A stretch of 64,000 bases of DNA. Source: Rhodococcus sp. KRD162 (GTDB lineage: Bacteria > Actinomycetota > Actinomycetes > Mycobacteriales > Mycobacteriaceae). Shown in pieces: positions 40,216 through 51,378 of the stretch. The notes beneath the pieces were generated by a model that worked only from the letters and a program-made list of their open reading frames with translations, was not told the DNA's origin and did no database searches. Made by a program: the position numbers and the translations under genes. The stretch is from positions 195,884 to 259,883 of the forward strand of contig NZ_JABFAU010000007.1 in assembly GCF_017168335.1 (NCBI RefSeq). The letters run 5' to 3'. Position 1 is the stretch's first letter, and each line of letters begins with the position of its first letter.

Positions 40216-41307
<1,092 letters not shown>

Positions 41308-41384
41308 CGCGGGGTGGAGCAGCTCGGTAGCTCGCTGGGCTCATAACCCAGAGGTCGCAGGTTCAAATCCTGTCCCCGCTACCA
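41308..41384 (+). tRNA. Initiator tRNA-fMet (CAT)
   Basis: 77 bases including the encoded CCA. The acceptor stem is CGCGGGG/CCCCGCT with an unpaired C1-T72, and the anticodon stem CTGGG/CCCAG has the three G-C pairs around loop CTCATAA. Both features mark an initiator. T-loop TTCAAAT. The genomic island begins at its 3' end. Confidence 0.97.
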
Positions 41385-41385
41385 A
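41377..41385 (+). repeat. Left putative attachment-site core, CGCTACCAA
   Basis: The last bases of the tRNA plus AA. The same nine bases occur at 50758-50766. The short identity is what large serine integrases usually leave. Confidence 0.55.
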
Positions 41386-41399
41386 AGTGGAAAAGTTAG

Positions 41400-41431
41400 A
41401 ACCAGCGCCCTCAGGGCGCTGGTTTTTTCTT
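41400..41431 (+). terminator. Intrinsic terminator just downstream of tRNA-fMet
   Basis: AACCAGCGCCC (41400-41410) pairs with GGGCGCTGGTT (41414-41424) around TCA, followed by a T-run to 41431. It belongs to the island side and now ends tRNA transcription. It also lies inside the antisense integrase remnant. Confidence 0.93.
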
Positions 41432-42013
41432 TTGAGCAAGGAACGACCGGTTGAGTCGGGGGTTGTCGAAAACTGCGAGTTCAAAGTAGTCCACGACCCG
41501 TCCGGCTCCTGCTGCGCGTCAGACTCTGCACGAAGACGCTTTGCAATATTCGGGTCCGTAAGGACCTCAAACAGTGAAGTCATCTTCACGTCGATGTCAT
41601 CGTCCATCACCTCGAAGTGTCTGATGATGGATGCATTGAGTTCGCGTCGAACCGCACCCGTCCCCTTCTCGTACAACTGTCCTGCGTTGGCCAGTATCTT
41701 GAGTGCCCGGTCCAGGCTTCGAGTGATGTGGTCGTGGGTGAGGCGGGTGCCGTCCAGGGTGTTTTGAGCATGCGTAATCTGCTCTGCGATTCGTTCCTGT
41801 TCCGTCTTCAGCTGATCAAGCGGCACTGCGCCTTGATAGTGGGCGTGTAAGACGGCCTCACGTTGTTTCTTCAATTTGGCAACCGCGTTCTCAGCACGGG
41901 TAATACGTCGACCGCCGCTCAACGAAGAAAACGACTCGTGGCTGCGTCGAAAGTTAGCTGACAGCAGGCACCAGGAGGCAGAGCACTTCTATCGAGCGCT
42001 TGAGGCAAGCACG

Positions 42014-42265
42014 ATGGGGGAGAACATTCATTCGATTTGGCAGAAGTTCGTACTCGACGGACATCGAGCAGAACTATCGGGCGACACCAGTGCAAGCCAG
42101 GTGCACAGCACAATCGCAGCGTGTGAGGAATATCGCAGTGCGATTGATCAGGACTGGCTGAAAATAGCTGATTGGTATGCACCGGGCTCGAAAGCGCCGC
42201 GTGGAAAAGACGGAAAACATCTGTATGCAGAACACGTGGAGTCGCTTGAAATAACGCCACAATAA
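42014..42265 (+). CDS. Hypothetical protein or gene fragment
   Basis: 83 residues from ATG 42014 (MGENIHSIWQKFVLDGHRAE...). The frame is open back to 41876 and still reads protein-like from about 41950 (RHQEAEHFYRALEAS), so this may be the end of a larger truncated gene adjoining the integrase remnant. No family is recognised. The sequence is hydrophilic and probably cytosolic. Confidence 0.4.
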   Translation: MGENIHSIWQKFVLDGHRAELSGDTSASQVHSTIAACEEYRSAIDQDWLKIADWYAPGSKAPRGKDGKHLYAEHVESLEITPQ

Positions 42266-42283
42266 TTTGGGCTTATTGTGAAA

Positions 42284-42625
42284 TTAGGTGCTGGACTCGG
42301 CGTCAGGGACAAGCTCGACGCTCCAACCTGCGGCGAAATCGTCTCCGACTACCTGGTCGATACTTTTCTCGGACAGAACTCTGACCAGGGCGAGTCGCCT
42401 GCTTTCAAGATCGCGCAGCGTCGCATCTCTCGTTGAGTCGAGACTGTGTGGTGCCACCACGGCGATGTCCGCGTCCTCGCTGTCGATCAGCAAATAGTTT
42501 GATGCCCTGTATCCAGCGTCTGCCGCGTTGTCTGAGGCACCGTGGAGCAGGTCAAACATTCCGATGGTCTCTTTTGTTGCTCGTTCGCTGCTTCGACCCG
42601 GTTTAGGTAGATGGTTCACGGCCAT
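42284..42625 (-). CDS. Hypothetical protein
   Basis: 113 residues, acidic, starting MAVNHLPKPGRSSERATKET. No recognised domain. The central part (YRASNYLLIDSEDADIAVVA) looks like alternating strands and loops. GGGAG at 42631-42635 (reverse strand) precedes ATG 42625, and a promoter-like TTGACA/TATTAA pair lies upstream, so expression is plausible. It is encoded downstream of the frameshifted membrane gene on the same strand. Confidence 0.6.
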   Translation of the reverse strand: MAVNHLPKPGRSSERATKETIGMFDLLHGASDNAADAGYRASNYLLIDSEDADIAVVAPHSLDSTRDATLRDLESRRLALVRVLSEKSIDQVVGDDFAAGWSVELVPDAESST

Positions 42626-42647
42626 TGGTTCTCCCAATTAGTATTGT

Positions 42648-42678
42648 TTAATACGACTTTATCACAATTTGTTGTCAA
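42648..42678 (-). promoter_or_regulatory. Promoter candidate for the 42.3-kb hypothetical gene
   Basis: On the reverse strand TTGACA (42673-42678) and TATTAA (42648-42653) are 19 bases apart, a slightly long spacer. The AT-rich setting contrasts with core promoters. Confidence 0.45.
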
Positions 42679-42694
42679 AATCGACCGGTAAAAA

Positions 42695-43794
42695 CTAGCT
42701 AACTCTGGCATCATTCATGAACCAGAATCGCAGCATGCGAACTGTGCTGACTGATATCGCAATAGCCGCCATCCATGCGCTGATGCCAACTGCAACATTC
42801 CAGAGGATAGTGGAATCAAAGACTGCCATAACCCACGGCAGGTTTTCCACGTTTCGACCGGCTACAACCAGTGCGTATGCGAGAAATTCCAGGTGAGGCT
42901 GACGGCTCCAATTAGCGAGAACGCTAGGGCGCTTGCAGATGACACAAGTGAACGACGCATTCGTGCCAAGTAGATAGTGACGGCCGTTGCTATAAGTAGT
43001 GGACACGCCAGAGTTGCGGCAACGAAGTCGCTGCCCGATTCTGAATTGACGACGGCCTGACGGAGCGAGATTGTGATTCCTAGAACGATTGTCAGCCAGA
43101 ATGCCGAAAGTAGGTCTGAACCAGTCGGCCTCTCAAATACTCTTAGCCGCATGAAGTAATCGGAGTTTCCCGATTTTGCAGCTTCTCGGCTATAAAAATG
43201 TGTCTGTGATGCACCTCGTTGTGGCAGTCGGAAGTAGCCTGGTGACATTGTCGATGCCGGTCGCGTTGAGCGGGTAGTGTTGCCTGTTCGATGCTCGATG
43301 GTTATCCTGTCCATAAAGGATCCATCGGGTACGGTTACCGATAGATGATAACTTTTAGACCGCTCGGCTCGGCCGAGGCCAATCTGAACGTGGCCGCTTG
43401 AGATTTTGAACAGTCGAAGAAACAATTGCGCGGGACGGCTGTATTCTGATTCGGACGCTGACTTCTGTATGGCGCTGTTCGGTATGTCAAAGGAATAGTT
43501 AATGGAGTAATGTGTCTGCGCTGGAGCCTGGATCACTATAAAGAATCTTGTCACCAGAGCCTGCGCGAAAAGCCTGGAGAGGGAGTGTGCATTTGGGTCA
43601 TTTATTGTTGAATTCGAGAATGCGCTGTTGACCCTCCCCAGTAATTGGGCGGAAATGCCTCCGTTATTGCGGGCAAGAACATGAGCTGGCTGAATGGCTG
43701 CACCGACCAGATCATTCAAATGTGAGGTAAACTCGTGGGACCAAAGGCTGAGATCGGGGTCAAGATTATATGCTTTCTTGTATAGAGAGATCAT
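42695..43794 (-). pseudogene. Membrane protein gene split by a frameshift
   Basis: The first frame (42862-43794, 310 residues) has a soluble N-terminal part of about 230 residues and three C-terminal hydrophobic segments (LLSAFWLTIVLGITISL; VAATLACPLLIATAVTIYL; ASALAFSLIGAVSL), then stops. The -1 frame continues at the same place (EFLAYALVVAGRNVENLPW) and adds a further hydrophobic segment (ILWNVAVGISAWMAAIAI) to a stop at 42695. One indel near 42880-42910 would explain this. A truncated but functional protein is also possible. No family is recognised. Confidence 0.55.
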
Positions 43795-43855
43795 TGATGC
43801 GACCGCGAGAATGTTGCAATCGGCGAGTGATTGCGCACTCTGCGTAGTCGGGGGA

Positions 43856-43894
43856 TCAGTTACCGCCGCCGTTGAAGTTGCCGCCGCCGTTCAT
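43856..43894 (-). CDS. Twelve-residue Gly/Asn peptide ORF upstream of the membrane gene
   Basis: MNGGGNFNGGGN, with an A/G-rich ribosome-site-like run (AGGGGGG) a few bases upstream of ATG 43894. It ends 61 bases before the membrane-protein ATG on the same strand. Could be a leader peptide. The repetitive codons could also be chance. Confidence 0.3.
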   Translation of the reverse strand: MNGGGNFNGGGN

Positions 43895-44008
43895 CGTCCA
43901 CCCCCCTTCGCGTAGATCATTTCCTTGCCAGCTGAGTAGTCGGCAGACGTTACGCGGGTGGATCTTCGTCTGACCGTCCTCGCAACGTCAGGATCAGAAT
44001 ACGCCGTT

Positions 44009-44071
44009 TACGCATGGGTGCAATACGCATGGGTACATTCCTCTCTGGCCGTATGGACGTGGGCCGTATGG
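44009..44071. repeat. Four-copy CGYATGG repeat cluster upstream of the XRE gene
   Basis: TACGCATGGGT occurs at 44009-44019 and 44024-44034, GGCCGTATGG at 44047-44056 and 44062-44071. Each pair has a 15-base period; the shared core CGYATGG starts at 44011, 44026, 44050 and 44065. The cluster ends 10 bases before the XRE GTG, so it is a likely operator for that protein. Iterons are a second possibility. Confidence 0.6.
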
Positions 44072-44080
44072 GGTTGATAG

Positions 44081-44347
44081 GTGCCCGATGCAGCGAAGCC
44101 TCCCCTCAACGCCACGACGCGCGAGTTTGGGGCGCGTATCCGTGCCCGCCGGGAGGAACTTGGACTCAGCCAGGAGGCCGCCGCGCTGCGGTGTGGCATC
44201 CACTGGACGCAGCTCGGGAAAGTGGAGCGCGGTCAGCGCAGTCTGCGGCTGGAGAACATCGTAAAGATTGCGTTTGGTCTTGATGTCACACCAGGTGGGT
44301 TGCTCAACGGCGTGCCGTTGCCTGGTGATGAGAATCAACCCGGATGA
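44081..44347 (+). CDS. XRE family (Cro/CI-type) transcriptional regulator
   Basis: 88 residues, essentially one helix-turn-helix: FGARIRARREELGLSQEAAA, then GIHWTQLGKVERGQRSLRLE and NIVKIAFGLDVTPGGLL. No sensor domain. GTG 44081 is preceded by the repeat cluster, with no ribosome site, so the mRNA may be leaderless. It is the first rightward gene of the cargo and probably controls itself and perhaps module A. Confidence 0.85.
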   Translation: MPDAAKPPLNATTREFGARIRARREELGLSQEAAALRCGIHWTQLGKVERGQRSLRLENIVKIAFGLDVTPGGLLNGVPLPGDENQPG

Positions 44348-44698
44348 TGGAACGCGGATCCCATCGGTATCAGTACCACCCCGTCACAGCCTGACTCAGC
44401 GGTAGCGATTGGTAAGGAGCCTGTCTGATTCGGACGTGCAATTGCAGCATTTCGGTCCGACGACGCATCAGGCCGTGAGTTCAGCACTTTTGGCGTAAGT
44501 GCTGATATCAAGGTGGGCCTTCGGGCGTTGTTGTCGCGATCGGAGTGCGCTCATTGGTTGCGGAGTGCGATTCGTGTAGTCCCCCAGCGGGCGCTTATGG
44601 CACTATATGGGTTCGAGTAGTGTAAGAATTCAAAACGGTCGGTATTCTATCGTTCGTGGCGCCGGAAGTGAGTTCGGACGCGAGGTTGGGGGTCTTTT
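44348..44698. other. Intergenic region with inverted repeats upstream of module A
   Basis: 351 bases without a convincing gene. A perfect 9-base inverted repeat TCAGCACTT-N7-AAGTGCTGA spans 44481-44505 (possible terminator for the XRE gene or operator), and a palindrome TGCAATTGCA lies at 44437-44446. The region nearest 44699 should hold the promoter of the next gene. Confidence 0.5.
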
Positions 44699-45214
44699 AT
44701 GTCCGTCGCAGTATGGTATCTGTTGCCATTCGCAGCAGTCGGAGTCCTGACGACCCTTCATGCGTTGCGCGCGTTTGCTCGTCGATCAGGCGACAGCCAT
44801 GTGGGAGTCTCCGGCGTATACGGAACCTATGATCCGGAAGCAAACCCCAATGTCAGAGCAGGTGTTGCGATCGTCAAGCAGAGAGGATCACGAATTTGCG
44901 TTCGAGTTGAGCGCGAGATTAGTCGATCGAACACGCCGCAGAGTCCCCGGAGAGTATTCGTCTACCGCGGGATATACCAAGCTGATAAAATTGCGTTGAC
45001 CTTTGCAGACCGACGTCTTAAGCACCGGATTGGCACCTTAATTGTGCACCGGGAAGGAACAAATGACTTTTTCTCCGGACTTGCGGTGTTCTACGAAGGT
45101 GACAACTTAGTGACGCACAGGTTTCAGCTCCGTAAGGACGGTTCACTGACAGGCGGTGCTGTTCTGCGATGGAGGGTCGGCACCGCGTTGTGGTTGTGGG
45201 GCGGCCTTGGTTGA
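44699..45214 (+). CDS. Membrane-anchored beta-rich protein (candidate effector)
   Basis: 171 residues. One N-terminal transmembrane helix (AVWYLLPFAAVGVLTTLHAL) is followed by about 140 residues of short alternating strands: GVSGVYGTYDPEANPN, VAIVKQRGSRICVRV, RRVFVYRGIYQADKIALTF, GTLIVHREG, FFSGLAVFYEGDNLVTHRF. The layout recalls the membrane-plus-beta-barrel effectors of CBASS-like systems (Cap15 type), although those have two helices. No nucleotide cyclase is encoded nearby, so this is only a structural comparison. It is the first gene of module A, 38 bases before the first PRTase-like gene. Confidence 0.55.
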   Translation: MSVAVWYLLPFAAVGVLTTLHALRAFARRSGDSHVGVSGVYGTYDPEANPNVRAGVAIVKQRGSRICVRVEREISRSNTPQSPRRVFVYRGIYQADKIALTFADRRLKHRIGTLIVHREGTNDFFSGLAVFYEGDNLVTHRFQLRKDGSLTGGAVLRWRVGTALWLWGGLG

Positions 45215-45237
45215 GGGCGGCATGTACGTCACTCAGC

Positions 45238-45246
45238 TGGTATAAT
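45238..45246 (+). promoter_or_regulatory. Extended -10 promoter of the first PRTase-like gene
   Basis: TGGTATAAT: a perfect TATAAT at 45241-45246 with the TG extension. ATG 45253 is six bases downstream, so the transcript should begin at the start codon. No -35 match at the usual spacing. Confidence 0.7.
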
Positions 45247-45252
45247 ACCTAC

Positions 45253-45795
45253 ATGAAGCCTGATATCCCCGCTATGAAGCCGGCCGGTCACGCCGGCAGC
45301 GGCTTCGGGTGTCGCCACGTTTTGCCGCGGCCAATCGAGGCTGCGGATTTGGCGCGTATCGCGTCGAGGTTCCAAGCCGTCGTGGGTTCTAAGATCGACG
45401 GACCAGTCCATCTAATCTCTGTGGCCAAGAGTGGCTACCCAATAGGCACGGCAGCGGCGCTGGAATTGATGCGCTCGGATGCTCAGCGTCAGGTGTATTT
45501 AAGTTGTGTAGATCCTACGGCAGATTTAAACACTTTCGCCGATATTGTTCAGTTTTCAAACTGCACAACCATACTTGTAGATAACTCGATAAAAACTGGA
45601 GAAACTGCTGTTCAGAGCGTAAAGATTCTTCACGATGCGTCTATTGATATCAACTTTATTGTTAAACTTGTAGAGTATAAAGACCTTGCCGAAATTGAGG
45701 CTCAGTCGTATATTAGTGGAGTGTGTCCATCGGCAGAAATTCTATCGCTGTACAGCGAAGGCGAAATTCGACAGCGCATAATTAGCGGATCTTGA
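45253..45795 (+). CDS. Phosphoribosyltransferase-like protein, soluble
   Basis: 180 residues with a type I PRTase fold pattern: HLISVAKSGYPIGTAAALEL as the pyrophosphate-loop region and TTILVDNSIKTGETAVQ as the PRPP loop. The loop reads V-D-N-x-x-x-T-G-x-T; the second acidic residue usual in PRTases is Asn. No hood domain of a known nucleotide salvage enzyme is recognised, and no pyr or pur genes are near. ATG 45253 is fixed by the promoter. Codon use is AT-rich, unlike the core. Confidence 0.65.
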   Translation: MKPDIPAMKPAGHAGSGFGCRHVLPRPIEAADLARIASRFQAVVGSKIDGPVHLISVAKSGYPIGTAAALELMRSDAQRQVYLSCVDPTADLNTFADIVQFSNCTTILVDNSIKTGETAVQSVKILHDASIDINFIVKLVEYKDLAEIEAQSYISGVCPSAEILSLYSEGEIRQRIISGS

Positions 45796-45859
45796 GTCGT
45801 TTATACTTTGGCAAGCTTAGGGGATTCCTATTATTACCGCCATTCTAGCTGGATTTTCG

Positions 45860-46408
45860 GTGCTTTCGGGTCTAGTTACTATTGTCGCTTTCTGCTTTAT
45901 TGTCCATGATGAGATTATCACTCGTCGAGTTAAGTCGTCCGATCTGAATGAGCCGTTGCGGATATGGCGATCGATCAGATACCGAGACTACTTAAACTCT
46001 ATCGCTGTAGTGACCGAGCGTATGAAGTCGGCAGAGTTTTCACCATCTTATATTGTCGCAATTCAGTACGGTGCCTTTGTTCCATCGGCTGAATTTGCAA
46101 AGAAGTTTAGGGTTCCTGTTTTGCACGTCGAAGTAGACTTGGATACAACGGATGTTGTGCCTGTTTGCGAGAGAGTAAAGCTGAAGTTCGATATAGAACT
46201 AATTGCAAACCGGCAGATACTAGTAGTGGATAACACAATTACCACCGGTAAAACTTTACGAATGACTTTAGATGAGATTGGAAAGGTGGATGGTGTCAAA
46301 TTGATATCCTGCGTAGTTTATCGTCCGAGTCTGAACTCTCCCAATTATGGTTCGCCGGACCATCTCTTGTTTCAGTCCAGGAGGAGGGTGACGCCGCTAC
46401 TCCGTTGA
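45860..46408 (+). CDS. Phosphoribosyltransferase-like protein with N-terminal membrane anchor
   Basis: About 182 residues from GTG 45860. A hydrophobic segment (LSGLVTIVAFCFIV) starts the protein; then a PRTase-like domain with YIVAIQYGAFVPSAEFAKKF and QILVVDNTITTGKTLRM. The PRPP loop has the same D-N change as the neighbour. The open frame begins at 45821 (ITAILAGFSV before GTG), and AGGGG at 45819-45823 would suit an AUU start near 45830 that completes the membrane helix. The true start is uncertain. It lies 64 bases after the first PRTase-like gene. Confidence 0.6.
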   Translation: MLSGLVTIVAFCFIVHDEIITRRVKSSDLNEPLRIWRSIRYRDYLNSIAVVTERMKSAEFSPSYIVAIQYGAFVPSAEFAKKFRVPVLHVEVDLDTTDVVPVCERVKLKFDIELIANRQILVVDNTITTGKTLRMTLDEIGKVDGVKLISCVVYRPSLNSPNYGSPDHLLFQSRRRVTPLLR

Positions 46409-46758
46409 AAGAATCGCATCATTTTTGTTGAACTAAATAGTCGGTCTATTGGCCGAAGCGTATATGCCGTATTCATTTCTCCTCCTTGGTGTGAGTCTCC
46501 TCTTTATCAAAACTGGGCCATACCAGCTCCGTGGCTTTCAAACGTCAACAAGCACGAATGTGTCTGTCAATATTCTTGCTTGAGTCTGCCAAGCTGATGC
46601 AGCCTCGATCTTTTCGACGAAATGCCCCACTACCGCGACGAGGGTCAACTTGCGGTTCGGTGCGAAGGTGTCTCCGAGCGCGCCATAGTTGTAGTTTGAG
46701 CCATGTGCTTAAATGGCATGATAAGTTCGTAACGCACACCAGAAGAGAGACCATCGTC
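46409..46758. other. Intergenic region with the lsr2 promoter
   Basis: 350 bases. TTGAGC (46696-46701) and TGATAA (46719-46724) are 17 bases apart and would give a leader of about 28 bases for the Lsr2 gene. Earlier bases hold nothing recognised; a frame open from 46531 into lsr2 has no family-like residues before MAKQ. Confidence 0.5.
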
Positions 46759-47124
46759 ATGGCCAAGCAAATCTTCGTCCAACTCGTCGACGATCTCGAC
46801 GACAAAGAGATCCCCGAAGGTACGGGGGAGAACATCACATTCTCGGTCAACGGCAACGAGTACGAGATCGATCTGAGCGACAAGAACGCCAAGGAGTTTC
46901 ACCGCAAACTCGACTACTACATTGGGTACAGCACCAAGGTTGGCGGACGCAAGGCGCGCAAATCGGCCAAAACGGGAGCTACCGCAAGCTCGACCGGCGC
47001 GCCCAAGCGAGACGCAGCTCAGACCCGTGCCATCCGTGAATGGGCACTTGCGAATGGGTACGAAATCTCCGCTCGCGGCCGTATTCCCGCAACAGTGGAA
47101 GAAGCATTCGACGCTGCTCACTGA
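46759..47124 (+). CDS. lsr2: Lsr2-family nucleoid-associated silencer
   Basis: 121 residues. N-terminal oligomerisation domain (FVQLVDDLDDKEIPEGTGEN, then YEIDLSDKNAKEFHRKLDYY) and C-terminal AT-rich DNA-binding domain with the core ARGRIP and REWALANGYEISARG. Lsr2 silences AT-rich foreign DNA as H-NS does. Its presence on the AT-rich island suggests an accessory copy that silences or modulates its own cargo; whether a second chromosomal copy exists cannot be seen here. ATG 46759 gives the canonical MAKQ start. Confidence 0.93.
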   Translation: MAKQIFVQLVDDLDDKEIPEGTGENITFSVNGNEYEIDLSDKNAKEFHRKLDYYIGYSTKVGGRKARKSAKTGATASSTGAPKRDAAQTRAIREWALANGYEISARGRIPATVEEAFDAAH

Positions 47125-47352
47125 TTGACCGTTGATCATAGAGGTGTTCGTAGATCGGCATGAAACGCCGCAAAACTGAGCCGGTATGAGGCTTTGTCAG
47201 CTGGAATTTTGATTGTCCGGGCCGCGTGGATGTTCAACGCACCGCATAGCCCAAAGCCCGCCGGACACCCGATGCGTCGTCCAACTTAATTCCTGCGCCG
47301 TACCGCGTAGCTGCAGGTAAACGCCGCTATTGCCAATGGCCAAGACATCACG

Positions 47353-47592
47353 ATGCTCCTAGAATTGGGTGTTTCGCGACCCAGTGAAGTTGTTTTGATG
47401 TCGCTTGGACTATCCCGAACAGCTACGCTTGCGCTAGCCGCATACGTGACGTCTGAGAGATGGACCGCTACCGAAAGCATCAGCTGGCTGAGGCGTCAAA
47501 ACATTGAAGGACTGGATATCCCGATCTTAATACAGAAGGAGATCCAAACTCTGCTAGATTCGCTTCAGTCTCGTCCTGAACAGCCTGGCTAA
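47353..47592 (+). pseudogene. Possible C-terminal tail of a helicase-type protein (fragment)
   Basis: 79 residues: VVLMSLGLSRTATLALAAYV, then ATESISWLRRQNIEGLDIPI. This resembles the small C-terminal domain seen at the end of some actinobacterial DEAD/DEAH helicases (SLGLSR...AL.WLR...). No helicase motor is present upstream, so it is probably debris left by a deletion. A small standalone protein cannot be excluded. The 228 bases before it hold nothing recognised. Confidence 0.3.
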
Positions 47593-48197
47593 ATATGGCG
47601 GCCCACCGATTGAATCTGTACGGGTGTTGAAATCAGCAGAAATTATTTTTCGACTAGCCGAAGTTCGACGTTCACGGCGTTGACGTCACTGGGCCTTGGC
47701 GTCTGCTTCCGTTTAAGCCTTTGCAACCAAACTATCGTCGCTAATATCAGCAACACTGCCGAGTCAATTCGCGATGGCCTTTTCGCCCGCTAGGATTGTG
47801 ACGAAGGTGTCGCGCTAGTCACATGCCCTGACGAATGTGAAAAGGTTTTGAGCGACCGAATGATGGGTGCAAGTCGGAACACAAATCAAACGATGCGCGC
47901 CCGGATCCGTGACGTTCTTCCATCCTTCAGTCGAATGACAAGCTATCCGTATGTGGAGTTGACCATCACGTCCGGCTCTGCGACCCAACCCAGCTCTATG
48001 CGAATCGCGAGAATACTAGCTGGTATCACCATTGGTCGGTCCGTCGAAGAGCCTGCGCGGCAACATTAGGCAAAGAAATAGTAGCTACCTAGGTGTGATG
48101 CGAAAGCCGGATGTTAAGATGGTAAGAACATAGACATGCGATTTAAGTTTATTTTTTGACAAGTTATCTTAATTGCAAGAAGGAGGCAATAGTTGCA
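47593..48197. other. Noncoding spacer upstream of module B
   Basis: 605 bases without a supported gene. An AT-rich block at 48110-48180 contains TTGACA at 48155-48160, an inverted repeat TTAAGAT (48114-48120) / ATCTTAA (48166-48172), and AGGAGG at 48181-48186 for the next gene; this is the likely control region of module B. The part before 48.0 kb looks like decayed sequence. Confidence 0.5.
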
Positions 48198-48944
48198 ATG
48201 GCAATTTCCGAGCAAGACGTGCTTCGTGTTGTCAACCGCTATATCGGGGTTGATGGAGGATATTTGGGTGACTTCAGTTATAGAACGCACACAGATTTCT
48301 ACACCGAGTATTGCGGCATATATGACATATTTCCTGACGAGCTCGAAGGAACGACACGTCAAAGATTCATTTCGATTCTGACTCAACAGTCGGCGGACAG
48401 GCAGGCAAAGATTCTGCGTGGTGTTCTGGAAAAGTACCCAGCAAACAACGAGTCTAGACGGCAATTCCTTCCAACTATTGAAGCCTGGATCAGGCAGCTT
48501 GAGGGAGCGCCCGTTGTCGACAGTCCAAAGCCAATTGAGTCGATGAGTGCAGTTGTTCGACAAGCGTTGGTTGATGCTGAGAATCTTATTCGGACGAGTG
48601 GACCTGCAAGTGCGGTAGATAGGGTTCATACTGCGCTGCATGGACATGTTAAATCCTTGTGCGACGCTGCAGGAATAGCACTTCCTGAACGTCCGACGTT
48701 GCAGGTTGCGGTGAAGCGTCTACGTGAGAACCATCCGCAACTTGTTCCAGCCGGTGAGCGTGCTGACGAGGTAAGTCGAATCCTGTATTCAATGGCTACG
48801 ACACTGGACGCTCTTACGACTTTGCGCAACAATGCTACAGCGGCGCATCCGAATGAGTCGTTACTGGGCGACCATGAAGCATTATTAGCGATTAATTCGG
48901 CCCGTACAGTCTTTGCGTATCTTGACTCGAAGGTGCAGGCATGA
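48198..48944 (+). CDS. AbiJ-type abortive infection protein (AbiJ N-terminal domain plus Abi_C)
   Basis: 248 residues. Residues about 5-80 fit an AbiJ N-terminal domain (DFYTEYCGIYDIFPDELEG, TTRQRFISILTQQ, AKILRGVLEKYP). Residues about 130-248 fit Abi_C (SAVDRVHTALHGHVKSLCDA, ILYSMATTLDALTTLRNNA, then HPNESLLG and NSARTVFAYLDS). Such proteins occur in phage-abortive systems, and Abi_C (HEPN-like helical fold) often marks RNA-targeting toxins. AGGAGG sits 11 bases before ATG. The stop overlaps the nuclease gene by four bases. Confidence 0.8.
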   Translation: MAISEQDVLRVVNRYIGVDGGYLGDFSYRTHTDFYTEYCGIYDIFPDELEGTTRQRFISILTQQSADRQAKILRGVLEKYPANNESRRQFLPTIEAWIRQLEGAPVVDSPKPIESMSAVVRQALVDAENLIRTSGPASAVDRVHTALHGHVKSLCDAAGIALPERPTLQVAVKRLRENHPQLVPAGERADEVSRILYSMATTLDALTTLRNNATAAHPNESLLGDHEALLAINSARTVFAYLDSKVQA

Positions 48945-50158
48945 GTCAGCTGTTTAATCGAGGAGAGTTAAGCGACTATCTTTCAAGTCGGCTAAGGTCT
49001 TGTCTGGGTCGGCTGGAGGCTATGCATGAGGACGAAGTCTTAGCGAGATCAACCGACGATATCGTCGCAGCACTTGCTGAAGCTGCCTATGTTGAGCCTG
49101 TAAAAGTTGGAGCGGACGCCGTAGATGGAGGTGTGTCCGAGACGAAAGTCGAGTCATACGATCGCTTTGATGGACAGTCTTATGTAGTGGCAGGACTGAA
49201 AATTCATGCTGTGTTCGAGTACTCTGGCAATACTGAAATTCTTTACTATCGCCCTTCCACACGGCTTCTTACGAGCTTCAATGCAGAAATAAGAAATAAT
49301 ACCATCACAGTGAAGATCGAGCAGGCAGGATCAACCCCCAACCCGACTGTAGCCAAGGATGCTATTAATCGTCAGATCGACCAGATCAGAACCATGGTCG
49401 GGCATGCTTCTACGGATATTACGGCCTTTAATGCGACGCTTGATACTCGAATTCGATCAGCTGTTGAGCGTCGCAAAGAATTTTTGCAGAACAGGCGCGA
49501 TCTAGCTGGTGCCCTTGGGTTCCCGTTGAAAAGAAGAAGCGATGCGCCCGCTCCGGTTCCACTACACCGCAAGGCTATGGGTGTCAGTCGATCAAGTTCT
49601 GCTAATCCGCGGTTGCCTTACAAAGACGAGCCGGCTTTGACCGAAGCGCAGTACGAGGATGCTATATCTGTCATTTCTTCTGCGTTGCTCTCGATGGAGC
49701 GTACGCCGTCTGTGGTTGCAGGAAAGAATGAAGAAGAGCTTCGCGATTACATCCTTTTTATGCTGAACGGCACGTTCAAGGGATCGGCCACTGGCGAAAC
49801 ATTCGTTAAGTCGGGTAAGACTGATGTTCTAATTCGTGTAGAGGATCGACATGTATTTGTCGGTGAGTGCAAGTGGTGGAAGGGCGCAAAGGCGCTTGAT
49901 GCAGCAATCGGCCAATTGCTCGGTTACTTACCATGGCGTGACGAAAAGGCGTCGCTTATTATCTTCATAGACAATAAGGATGCCAGTGCAGTCTTCGATA
50001 AGGTGGAAGCGTCGGTGAAGGCACATTCTGCTTACAAGCGGGCGGGGAAAGCATCATCTGATGGTACAAGGCGACGAAATTTTGTTCTAGGTCACCCAGA
50101 AGATCCTGAGCGGGAGATCCAACTCGCTGTCATGTTTGCCGTTGTAGACACAAAGTAG
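48941..50158 (+). CDS. PD-(D/E)XK nuclease-like protein, partner of the AbiJ/Abi_C protein
   Basis: 405 residues. The N-terminal 200 residues (HEDEVLARSTDDIVAALAEA, KIHAVFEYSGNTEILYYRPS) are a beta-rich region with an Arg-rich helical stretch and no recognised family. The C-terminal half has a PD-(D/E)XK core: EELRDYILFML, GKTDVLIRV (Asp), VFVGECKWWKGAK (E-x-K) and AIGQLLGYLPW (Gln/Tyr helix). It probably cuts nucleic acid. ATG 48941 overlaps the AbiJ stop (ATGA), so both are made together. AT-rich codon use matches module A. Confidence 0.75.
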   Translation: MSQLFNRGELSDYLSSRLRSCLGRLEAMHEDEVLARSTDDIVAALAEAAYVEPVKVGADAVDGGVSETKVESYDRFDGQSYVVAGLKIHAVFEYSGNTEILYYRPSTRLLTSFNAEIRNNTITVKIEQAGSTPNPTVAKDAINRQIDQIRTMVGHASTDITAFNATLDTRIRSAVERRKEFLQNRRDLAGALGFPLKRRSDAPAPVPLHRKAMGVSRSSSANPRLPYKDEPALTEAQYEDAISVISSALLSMERTPSVVAGKNEEELRDYILFMLNGTFKGSATGETFVKSGKTDVLIRVEDRHVFVGECKWWKGAKALDAAIGQLLGYLPWRDEKASLIIFIDNKDASAVFDKVEASVKAHSAYKRAGKASSDGTRRRNFVLGHPEDPEREIQLAVMFAVVDTK

Positions 50159-50264
50159 ATGCTGTCTCCGCCGCACCTTTTATGCACTGGCGTGTCTTGG
50201 GCTATCAGAATATACAGCGGCAGGTACAATTTTTGACTTTCTTGGGGCTATTCTAAGAGTACTT

Positions 50265-50474
50265 ATGCAAAACCCTGAACCAAAGAAACGTACGACTCCA
50301 TCAAAATCATCACCACGAAAACCTCGCAACATTAGCGTTCGCGCGGTGCGGCTAGAGAACCCCGATCTCGATCGGTTCGCCCGAGCGGTCCTTGAGATTG
50401 CTCTCTTGGAAGCCGAGAAGGCTGCCCGCATCGAGCAGAACGACAAGCTTGACTGGCCTAAGTTGCCTAACTGA
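50265..50474 (+). CDS. Small basic hypothetical protein
   Basis: 69 residues: a Lys/Pro/Ser-rich basic N-terminus (EPKKRTTPSKSSPRKPRNIS) and an amphipathic helix (LDRFARAVLEIALLEAEKAA). No known family. The basic tail suggests nucleic-acid binding. It lies near the right end of the island, convergent with a small HTH gene. The ribosome site is weak. Confidence 0.5.
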   Translation: MQNPEPKKRTTPSKSSPRKPRNISVRAVRLENPDLDRFARAVLEIALLEAEKAARIEQNDKLDWPKLPN

Positions 50475-50481
50475 GTCTGGC

Positions 50482-50706
50482 TCAATACCGCCCACCCCAC
50501 GGCCGAACCGTCGCCTCACGTTCGCGCAGTACCTTGAGAACCGTCGCCTTCCCGATGCCAAGCTCCTCGGCAACCATCCGGCTCGTCGACCCAGTCTCAT
50601 ACAGCTCCACGACTCGATCCTTCAGCCGCTCAGTCATGCGGGTACGTGTTCGTGGCCGTTGGTCGTCTGTATCAATGAACGTACTGGCGTCGGGTCTTGC
50701 ATTCAC
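50482..50706 (-). CDS. Small resolvase-type helix-turn-helix protein
   Basis: About 74 residues from GTG 50706 (or 51 from ATG 50637). The segment DRVVELYETGSTSRMVAEEL followed by GIGKATVLKVLREREATVRP is the HTH found at the C-terminus of resolvase/invertase recombinases and as standalone small proteins beside actinobacterial serine integrases. No catalytic domain. It lies near the right end of the island, opposite the integrase remnant at the left, and may be a leftover of the same element or a directionality factor. Confidence 0.6.
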   Translation of the reverse strand: MNARPDASTFIDTDDQRPRTRTRMTERLKDRVVELYETGSTSRMVAEELGIGKATVLKVLREREATVRPWGGRY

Positions 50707-50757
50707 CGTAGATCTGTGAGCAAGATCACTGTATTCGCTCAAGTTAAGTTGCTCCAG

Positions 50758-50766
50758 CGCTACCAA
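50758..50766 (+). repeat. Right putative attachment-site core, CGCTACCAA
   Basis: Copy of the tRNA-fMet 3' end, followed immediately by a perfect terminator hairpin that would suit the tRNA gene before insertion. Confidence 0.55.
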
Positions 50767-50767
50767 T

Positions 50768-50801
50768 AAAAAGACCCAGGACATATGTCCTGGGTCTTTT
50801 T
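50768..50801. terminator. Perfect 17-bp palindromic terminator, probably the displaced tRNA-fMet terminator
   Basis: Arms 50768-50784 and 50785-50801 are exact reverse complements (AAAAAGACCCAGGACAT and its complement). One base after the right CGCTACCAA copy, it would sit just behind the tRNA if the island were removed. No other rightward gene ends here except through the island. Confidence 0.85.
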
Positions 50802-50862
50802 CGTGATTGCATGAGCGAATGACTCCACGTGGCGTGACCTGGTACCGAGCGGGCCGAGTCCG

Positions 50863-51378
50863 GTGATCCTTCCCCAAGTCAGAGACCCGCGATTGATCAC
50901 CGTGCGCCGCGGCGGCCAACTGTCCGACGAGGACCATCGACATATCGCACTGTGGGCGGCCGAGTGTGCCGAACACGTCCTGGGATTATTCGAGGAGGTC
51001 GAACCCTCCGATTCGCGGCCCCGCGCCGCCGTCGACGCGATCCGCGCGTGGACGCGTGGCGAACTCGCCATGATGGACACGCGAGCGTTCGGCGGACACA
51101 GCATGGGTGCAGCGCGGGCCCTGTCCGGTGCCGCACGTTTCGCCGCCTACGCGGCCGGCCAGGCGGCGTGTGTGGCCCATGTTCCCGAGCATGATCTGGG
51201 AGCGGCCGCGTACGCCATCAAGGCGGTTCGGGCCGCGGCACCTGCGGGTGCGCAGGCAGTCGCTGGACGCGAGGAACGCGCGTGGCAGCGCGATCGTCTC
51301 CCTCCCAGCGTGCGGGAGTTGGTCCTGGAGGATCAGAAGCGACGGAACAGTATCTGCTGGTTCGTATTCGATTCCTGA
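50863..51378 (+). CDS. Imm-5-like protein (putative immunity protein family)
   Basis: 171 residues: ILPQVRDPRLITVRRGGQLS, then HIALWAAECAEHVLGLFEE, AIRAWTRGELAMM and RFAAYAAGQAACVAHVPEHD. This matches the Imm-5-like family (helical, often annotated putative immunity protein), which in actinobacteria is usually a standalone gene without a neighbouring toxin. No toxin is seen here. GTG 50863. First core gene after the island. Confidence 0.7.
   Translation: MILPQVRDPRLITVRRGGQLSDEDHRHIALWAAECAEHVLGLFEEVEPSDSRPRAAVDAIRAWTRGELAMMDTRAFGGHSMGAARALSGAARFAAYAAGQAACVAHVPEHDLGAAAYAIKAVRAAAPAGAQAVAGREERAWQRDRLPPSVRELVLEDQKRRNSICWFVFDS

Follow-up and report, generated by a model that had tools for sequence, protein, structure and literature searches.

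A rare three-gene module, carried on a mobile genomic island, was identified in the window (the whole stretch of 64,000 nucleotides analyzed here). By sequence comparison the trio is a conserved unit (n = 2 loci), and its context tentatively suggests a conflict module, probably directed against phages or mobile elements, in which a pair of PRTase-like proteins would bind PRPP or a nucleotide and control a third protein. The three open reading frames are co-directional, all on the plus strand. P1 (44699..45214) encodes a 171-aa protein with an N-terminal hydrophobic helix followed by a predicted beta-rich domain, P2 (45253..45795) a 180-aa divergent PRTase-like protein with the motif VDNSIKTGET, and P3 (45821..46408) a PRTase with a predicted transmembrane (TM) anchor and the motif VDNTITTGKT. 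The earlier note had described an AT-rich island encoding a one-helix beta-rich protein, a PRTase-like protein, and a membrane-anchored PRTase, and this description is borne out by the open reading frames, GC content, and profiles. The D-N that it reported in both PRTase motifs is likewise read directly from the sequence.

Relatives of P1, P2, and P3 occur in the same order and on the same strand in a second, remotely related locus (L040), on contig WRMB01000002.1 of a Micrococcales MAG, whose source we take from its name to be the termite gut. The earlier note had suggested a search for co-occurring homologues, and here all three are found together. Smith-Waterman comparison of the window with L040 against 500 shuffles gave z scores of 20, 24, and 38 for P1, P2, and P3, respectively. 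Identities range from 31 to 40% across the trio: 31% locally for P1 (33% in alignment A2), 40% over 70 aa for P2, and 31% over the alignment for P3. We found L040 by searching genome_contigs at the DNA level for [hydrophobic]-D-N-[S/T]-I-x-T-G-[K/E]-T, a pattern derived from P2 and P3. Twenty-two stretches carried this pattern, and L040 matched through its P2 loop. Because the pattern selected for the P2 loop only, the presence of P1 and P3 and the gene order in L040 are independent of the discovery route. The other 21 of the 22 stretches had no tblastn match worth keeping and were, by eye, other genes or short frames. Serine-recombinase-like fragments are present in both loci: an integrase piece at the left end of the island in the window (phrog_95, E = 2.5e-4), and a fragment in L040/L071 recognized by eye and by one 32-aa match at 50%.

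The module rides a precise 9.4-kb insertion at tRNA-Met (41386..50766; strand not applicable). GC content is 0.485-0.576 in the ten 1-kb bins between 41001 and 51000 and 0.61-0.70 elsewhere, and the low-GC stretch starts at the 3' end of the tRNA-Met gene (41308-41384). A 9-bp direct repeat, CGCTACCAA, is found at the tRNA end (41377-41385) and again at 50758-50766. A search of 37 genomes yielded 19 loci from relatives. The site is uninterrupted in all 13 relatives examined (L080-L092), where the tRNA is followed directly by a terminator-like hairpin (by eye) resembling the hairpin after 50766 in the window. In blastn, 11 of the 19 loci align with the right flank from 50758-50878 on, and two more from 51418; among the other six loci (L093-L098), one aligns from 51473 and five have no right-flank match within the retrieved stretch. 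The uninterrupted tRNA sites in relatives, together with the flank alignments, therefore place the module on a 9.4-kb insertion, which has the hallmarks of a tRNA-borne island: insertion at a tRNA, a direct repeat, and an empty site in relatives.

Other cargo of the island includes genes for HTH_3, Lsr2, Abi_C, and PDC-S54 proteins. The HTH_3 regulator gene (44081..44347, plus strand; PF01381, E = 3.1e-12; PADLOC Control_protein, E = 2.1e-14) lies upstream of the three genes and is a possible regulator of them. Outside the module, at 48156..50158 on the plus strand, an Abi_C gene (PF14355, E = 8.3e-14) is followed by a PDC-S54 candidate (PDLC05036, E = 3.9e-125); the ends of the two genes overlap, and they likely form a two-gene defense unit. 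The Lsr2 protein (46759-47124) has both dimerization and DNA-binding domains and perhaps silences AT-rich cargo.

P3 falls within the PRTase family, matching Pribosyltran (PF00156) at E = 2e-10, with its L040 relative at 4.1e-15 (Pfam). The profile match likens P3 to the type I PRTase fold (purine PRTase-like; 1vdm, 5vog), and a search with the A1 profile retrieves both structures, 1vdm at 8.3e-8 and 5vog at 3.1e-7. Unlike such enzymes, P3 has a TM anchor, carries D-N rather than D-D, and has no salvage gene found adjacent, and the match of P2 to the fold is marginal. The predicted TM segment is present in P3 of both loci, with 19-residue hydropathy values of 2.36 and 2.37. In contrast, the best 19-residue value in the P1 relative of L040 is 0.93, with no predicted TM helix, and by eye none is encoded in the three frames upstream of that gene. 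The PRTase is therefore the predicted constant membrane component. The earlier note had proposed the layout of a membrane effector with nucleotide sensors; as worded, this is not supported, because P1 of L040 lacks a predicted TM helix and it is the PRTase P3 that keeps the anchor in both loci.

The start of P3 may be unusual. Its first standard start codon is GTG 45860, which gives 182 aa, and the frame is open from 45821. Since the hydrophobic segment runs 5' of GTG 45860, and that part aligns with the TM segment of L040 P3, initiation may occur upstream at a non-standard codon. Between 45821 and 45860, no standard start lies 5' of the hydrophobic segment in its full length; translation of P3 may begin here at ATT codons that follow an AGGGG.

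In profile comparison, P2 is far more degenerate than P3. Its scores are weak (UPRTase, E = 0.0054; PRTase_2, E = 0.018), both under the curated Pfam cut-off, and it is also weakly pyrE-like. When P2 was compared with P3 using hhalign, the PRPP loop alone was aligned (E = 2.5e-4, probability 43%). The P2 model has a pLDDT of 43, and the Foldseek matches listed for a model of such low confidence include no PRTase. The P2 frame spans 45169-45795, and translation probably starts at the in-frame ATG 45253. An exact TATAAT box (45241..45246, plus strand), read from the sequence, lies six bases before this ATG. It is missing from the output of the promoter consensus scan, which also requires a -35 element. 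In L040, TAAAAT lies seven bases before GTG 4747 of P2; an alternative in-frame start, ATG 4738, overlaps this box. A -10-like box directly before the start is the pattern of leaderless actinobacterial genes. The two boxes, noticed post hoc, are only suggestive of a leaderless-like start for P2 in both loci.

The D-N change is found in all four PRTase-like domains of the two loci. Among generic PRTase loci from the P3 searches, 37 of 38 read D-D, none reads D-N, and one has no motif in the range scanned, a narrow control, since almost all of the 37 have an identical loop and represent one housekeeping family. The claim that the loops keep TGxT alongside D-N stood for D-N only, as the L040 P3 loop (VDNSIRSGKT) reads SG. 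The two adjacent acids of canonical PRTase catalysis are not both present: all four domains lack the second and retain the first Asp. In uracil PRTases, too, the second position of the motif is not an acid. Given this precedent and the retained Asp, the D-N argument against a metabolic role is weaker than the earlier note stated. The other half of that argument holds, as the proteins scanned at the two loci include no salvage gene beside the module.

P1 has one hydropathic segment (residues 2-20 in a hydropathy scan) and no family match at E ≤ 1 in Pfam, PADLOC, or NCBIfam. Its AF2 model, of low confidence (pLDDT 42), contains a helix at residues 9-26 and eight strands, and P1 is perhaps a ligand-binding barrel. 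Neither this weak model nor that of P2 gave a confident fold in Foldseek or VIA. If the low-confidence model is right, the predicted N-terminal helix and eight strands would resemble the Cap15/OptE S-2TMbeta effectors, as described in the available text of PMC12657218. However, those effectors have two N-terminal TM helices, whereas P1 has one hydropathic helix and its relative none. Kinship with Cap15, which had been raised from the sequence, finds no support at that level. Neither P1 nor its relative has any Pfam match at E ≤ 1, and thus none to Cap15_CD_rec (PF18153), and comparison of P1 with two Cap15 proteins gave Smith-Waterman z scores of -0.5 to 2.3 and an hhalign probability of 0.2%. 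No CD-NTase is among the scanned neighbor proteins, and a profile search of the source genome with PF18153 yielded no match. Cap15 is also absent from the VIA matches listed for the P1 model, which, given the weakness of that model, excludes nothing.

Cap15 genes themselves occur in 5 of 61 relatives (L099-L103). In both loci for which open reading frames were listed (L100 and L102), the Cap15 gene adjoins a gene that, by eye, we take to be nucleotidyltransferase-like, forming CBASS-like pairs.

The family is sporadic: among the whole-genome searches it was found in the source genome and G712 only. P3 matched 25 of 61 whole genomes, and all 19 matching loci checked are D-D. Searches with P2 in 298 and in 396 whole genomes each returned the source genome and two weak matches, and P1 in 396 returned the source genome and one weak match. 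A P3 profile matched 146 of 297 genomes of the order of L040; besides G712, all matches listed begin at model position 44 or later, past the TM segment, and of 19 loci checked, 18 are D-D and one has no motif in range. Among 394 genomes of the class, the source genome alone was found at 1e-11, and among 37 genomes of the genus, the source genome plus two matches on the PRTase part. No usable close homologue was found in genome_contigs with P3, and no match in plasmids by tblastn with P1, P2, P3, or the P3 and P2 relatives. In phages, P2 had no match and P3 had one (E = 6e-3). Neither single proteins nor three profiles gave anything usable in viral_contigs, where the D-N motif occurs in three stretches, none with a tblastn match. 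On inspection, all five weak matches from the P2 and P1 searches look unrelated or generic: L023 and L024 have D-D motifs; L025, although its tblastn E in a small set was 3e-5, runs antisense to a radical-SAM-like frame and contains stops; and L026 and L028 are other genes by eye.

PRTases have been placed in defense modules before. In the available text of PMC12548924, type III retrons carry a PRTase (PRTase/winged-helix effectors) as the effector gene, and its action is called unknown. These systems place a PRTase within a defense module, as the candidate module here would, but among the 10 island proteins scanned there is no reverse transcriptase, Rfam at the gathering threshold finds only the tRNA in 40900-51000 and no retron ncRNA, and P1-P3 have no PADLOC match. 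In P2-like phages, a DprA-PRTase system that acts against T7 and lambda likewise has a PRTase as proposed effector, with its action called unknown in the text available (PMC9122126); here, the proteins scanned at the two loci include no DprA. PADLOC has no model for P1-P3 (E ≤ 1) or for their L040 relatives (E ≤ 0.01). Among the titles listed in searches of open-licence PMC papers, none matched the three-gene layout, which is not proof of absence, and the terms PRTase, phosphoribosyl, and PRPP do not occur in PMC7159879. As a minimal two-PRTase module, with one PRTase predicted at the membrane and no reverse transcriptase or DprA found adjacent, this locus would allow the PRTase part of defense to be studied alone. 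It could also reveal whether PRPP or nucleotide pools tell cells that they are infected.

We favor a conflict role over metabolism because of the sporadic spread, the mobility, and the defense-type neighbors, and we infer the function from this context. P2 and P3 would pair at the membrane and bind PRPP or a nucleotide that infection generates or depletes. P1 would be the partner whose state they control, with a predicted anchor in the window and none in the relative, and the infected cell would stop growing or suffer membrane damage. Weighing against a conflict role, there are two loci only, no defense model covers the trio, the genes scanned beside the L040 module belong to no clear defense family, and the defense-type neighbors on the island can be chance cargo. 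A doubtful alternative, though not far behind the PRTase pair, is that P3 is a toxic enzyme and P2 its pseudoenzyme partner, with P3 consuming PRPP or modifying nucleotides at the membrane and P1 acting as sensor or immunity partner. P3 keeps a recognizable PRTase domain in both loci, with the first Asp and G-K-T intact, next to a far more degenerate P2, and PRTases are probable effectors of other systems in the portion of PMC9122126 available; the second acid of the PRPP motif, however, is missing throughout the family.

The mobile island, the HTH gene upstream in the window, and the promoter-like box of P2 in both loci would also suit an addiction or island-maintenance module, resembling a toxin-antitoxin system rather than phage defense. 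P1-P3 match no toxin or antitoxin family, and we regard this as improbable. A metabolic or envelope role seems the least probable of the explanations weighed here. Actinobacteria convert PRPP to lipid-linked pentose in arabinan synthesis, and a P3 anchored in both loci could pass a phosphoribosyl group to lipids or surface precursors, but the genes are sporadic in the whole-genome searches, sit on a mobile island, and have no envelope or salvage gene adjacent among the proteins scanned. A bolder form of the PRTase-pair reading is itself unlikely, if slightly less so than an addiction module: a new immune module in which an anchored PRTase and a degenerate soluble paralogue, their loops retuned from D-D to D-N, would gauge PRPP or a nucleotide and release a small barrel protein once infection shifts the pool.

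In the window, 42862-43794 (minus strand) encodes a membrane protein of 310 aa that belongs to no known family. It is possibly a very remote relative of a membrane protein of 593 aa whose gene lies some 1 kb downstream of the relative's module (L071:14936-16717). The whole proteins gave a Smith-Waterman z of 2.3 and an hhalign score inside the shuffle range; hand-chosen halves, selected post hoc, gave a z of 3.6 that none of 500 shuffles reached. About 8.4 kb upstream of the relative's module, L071 1053-3907 encodes a small TM protein with a weak match to PD-Lambda-5_B (E = 0.0091) and, after it, a protein of 790 aa that has an FGE-sulfatase domain and, by eye, a P-loop-like stretch.
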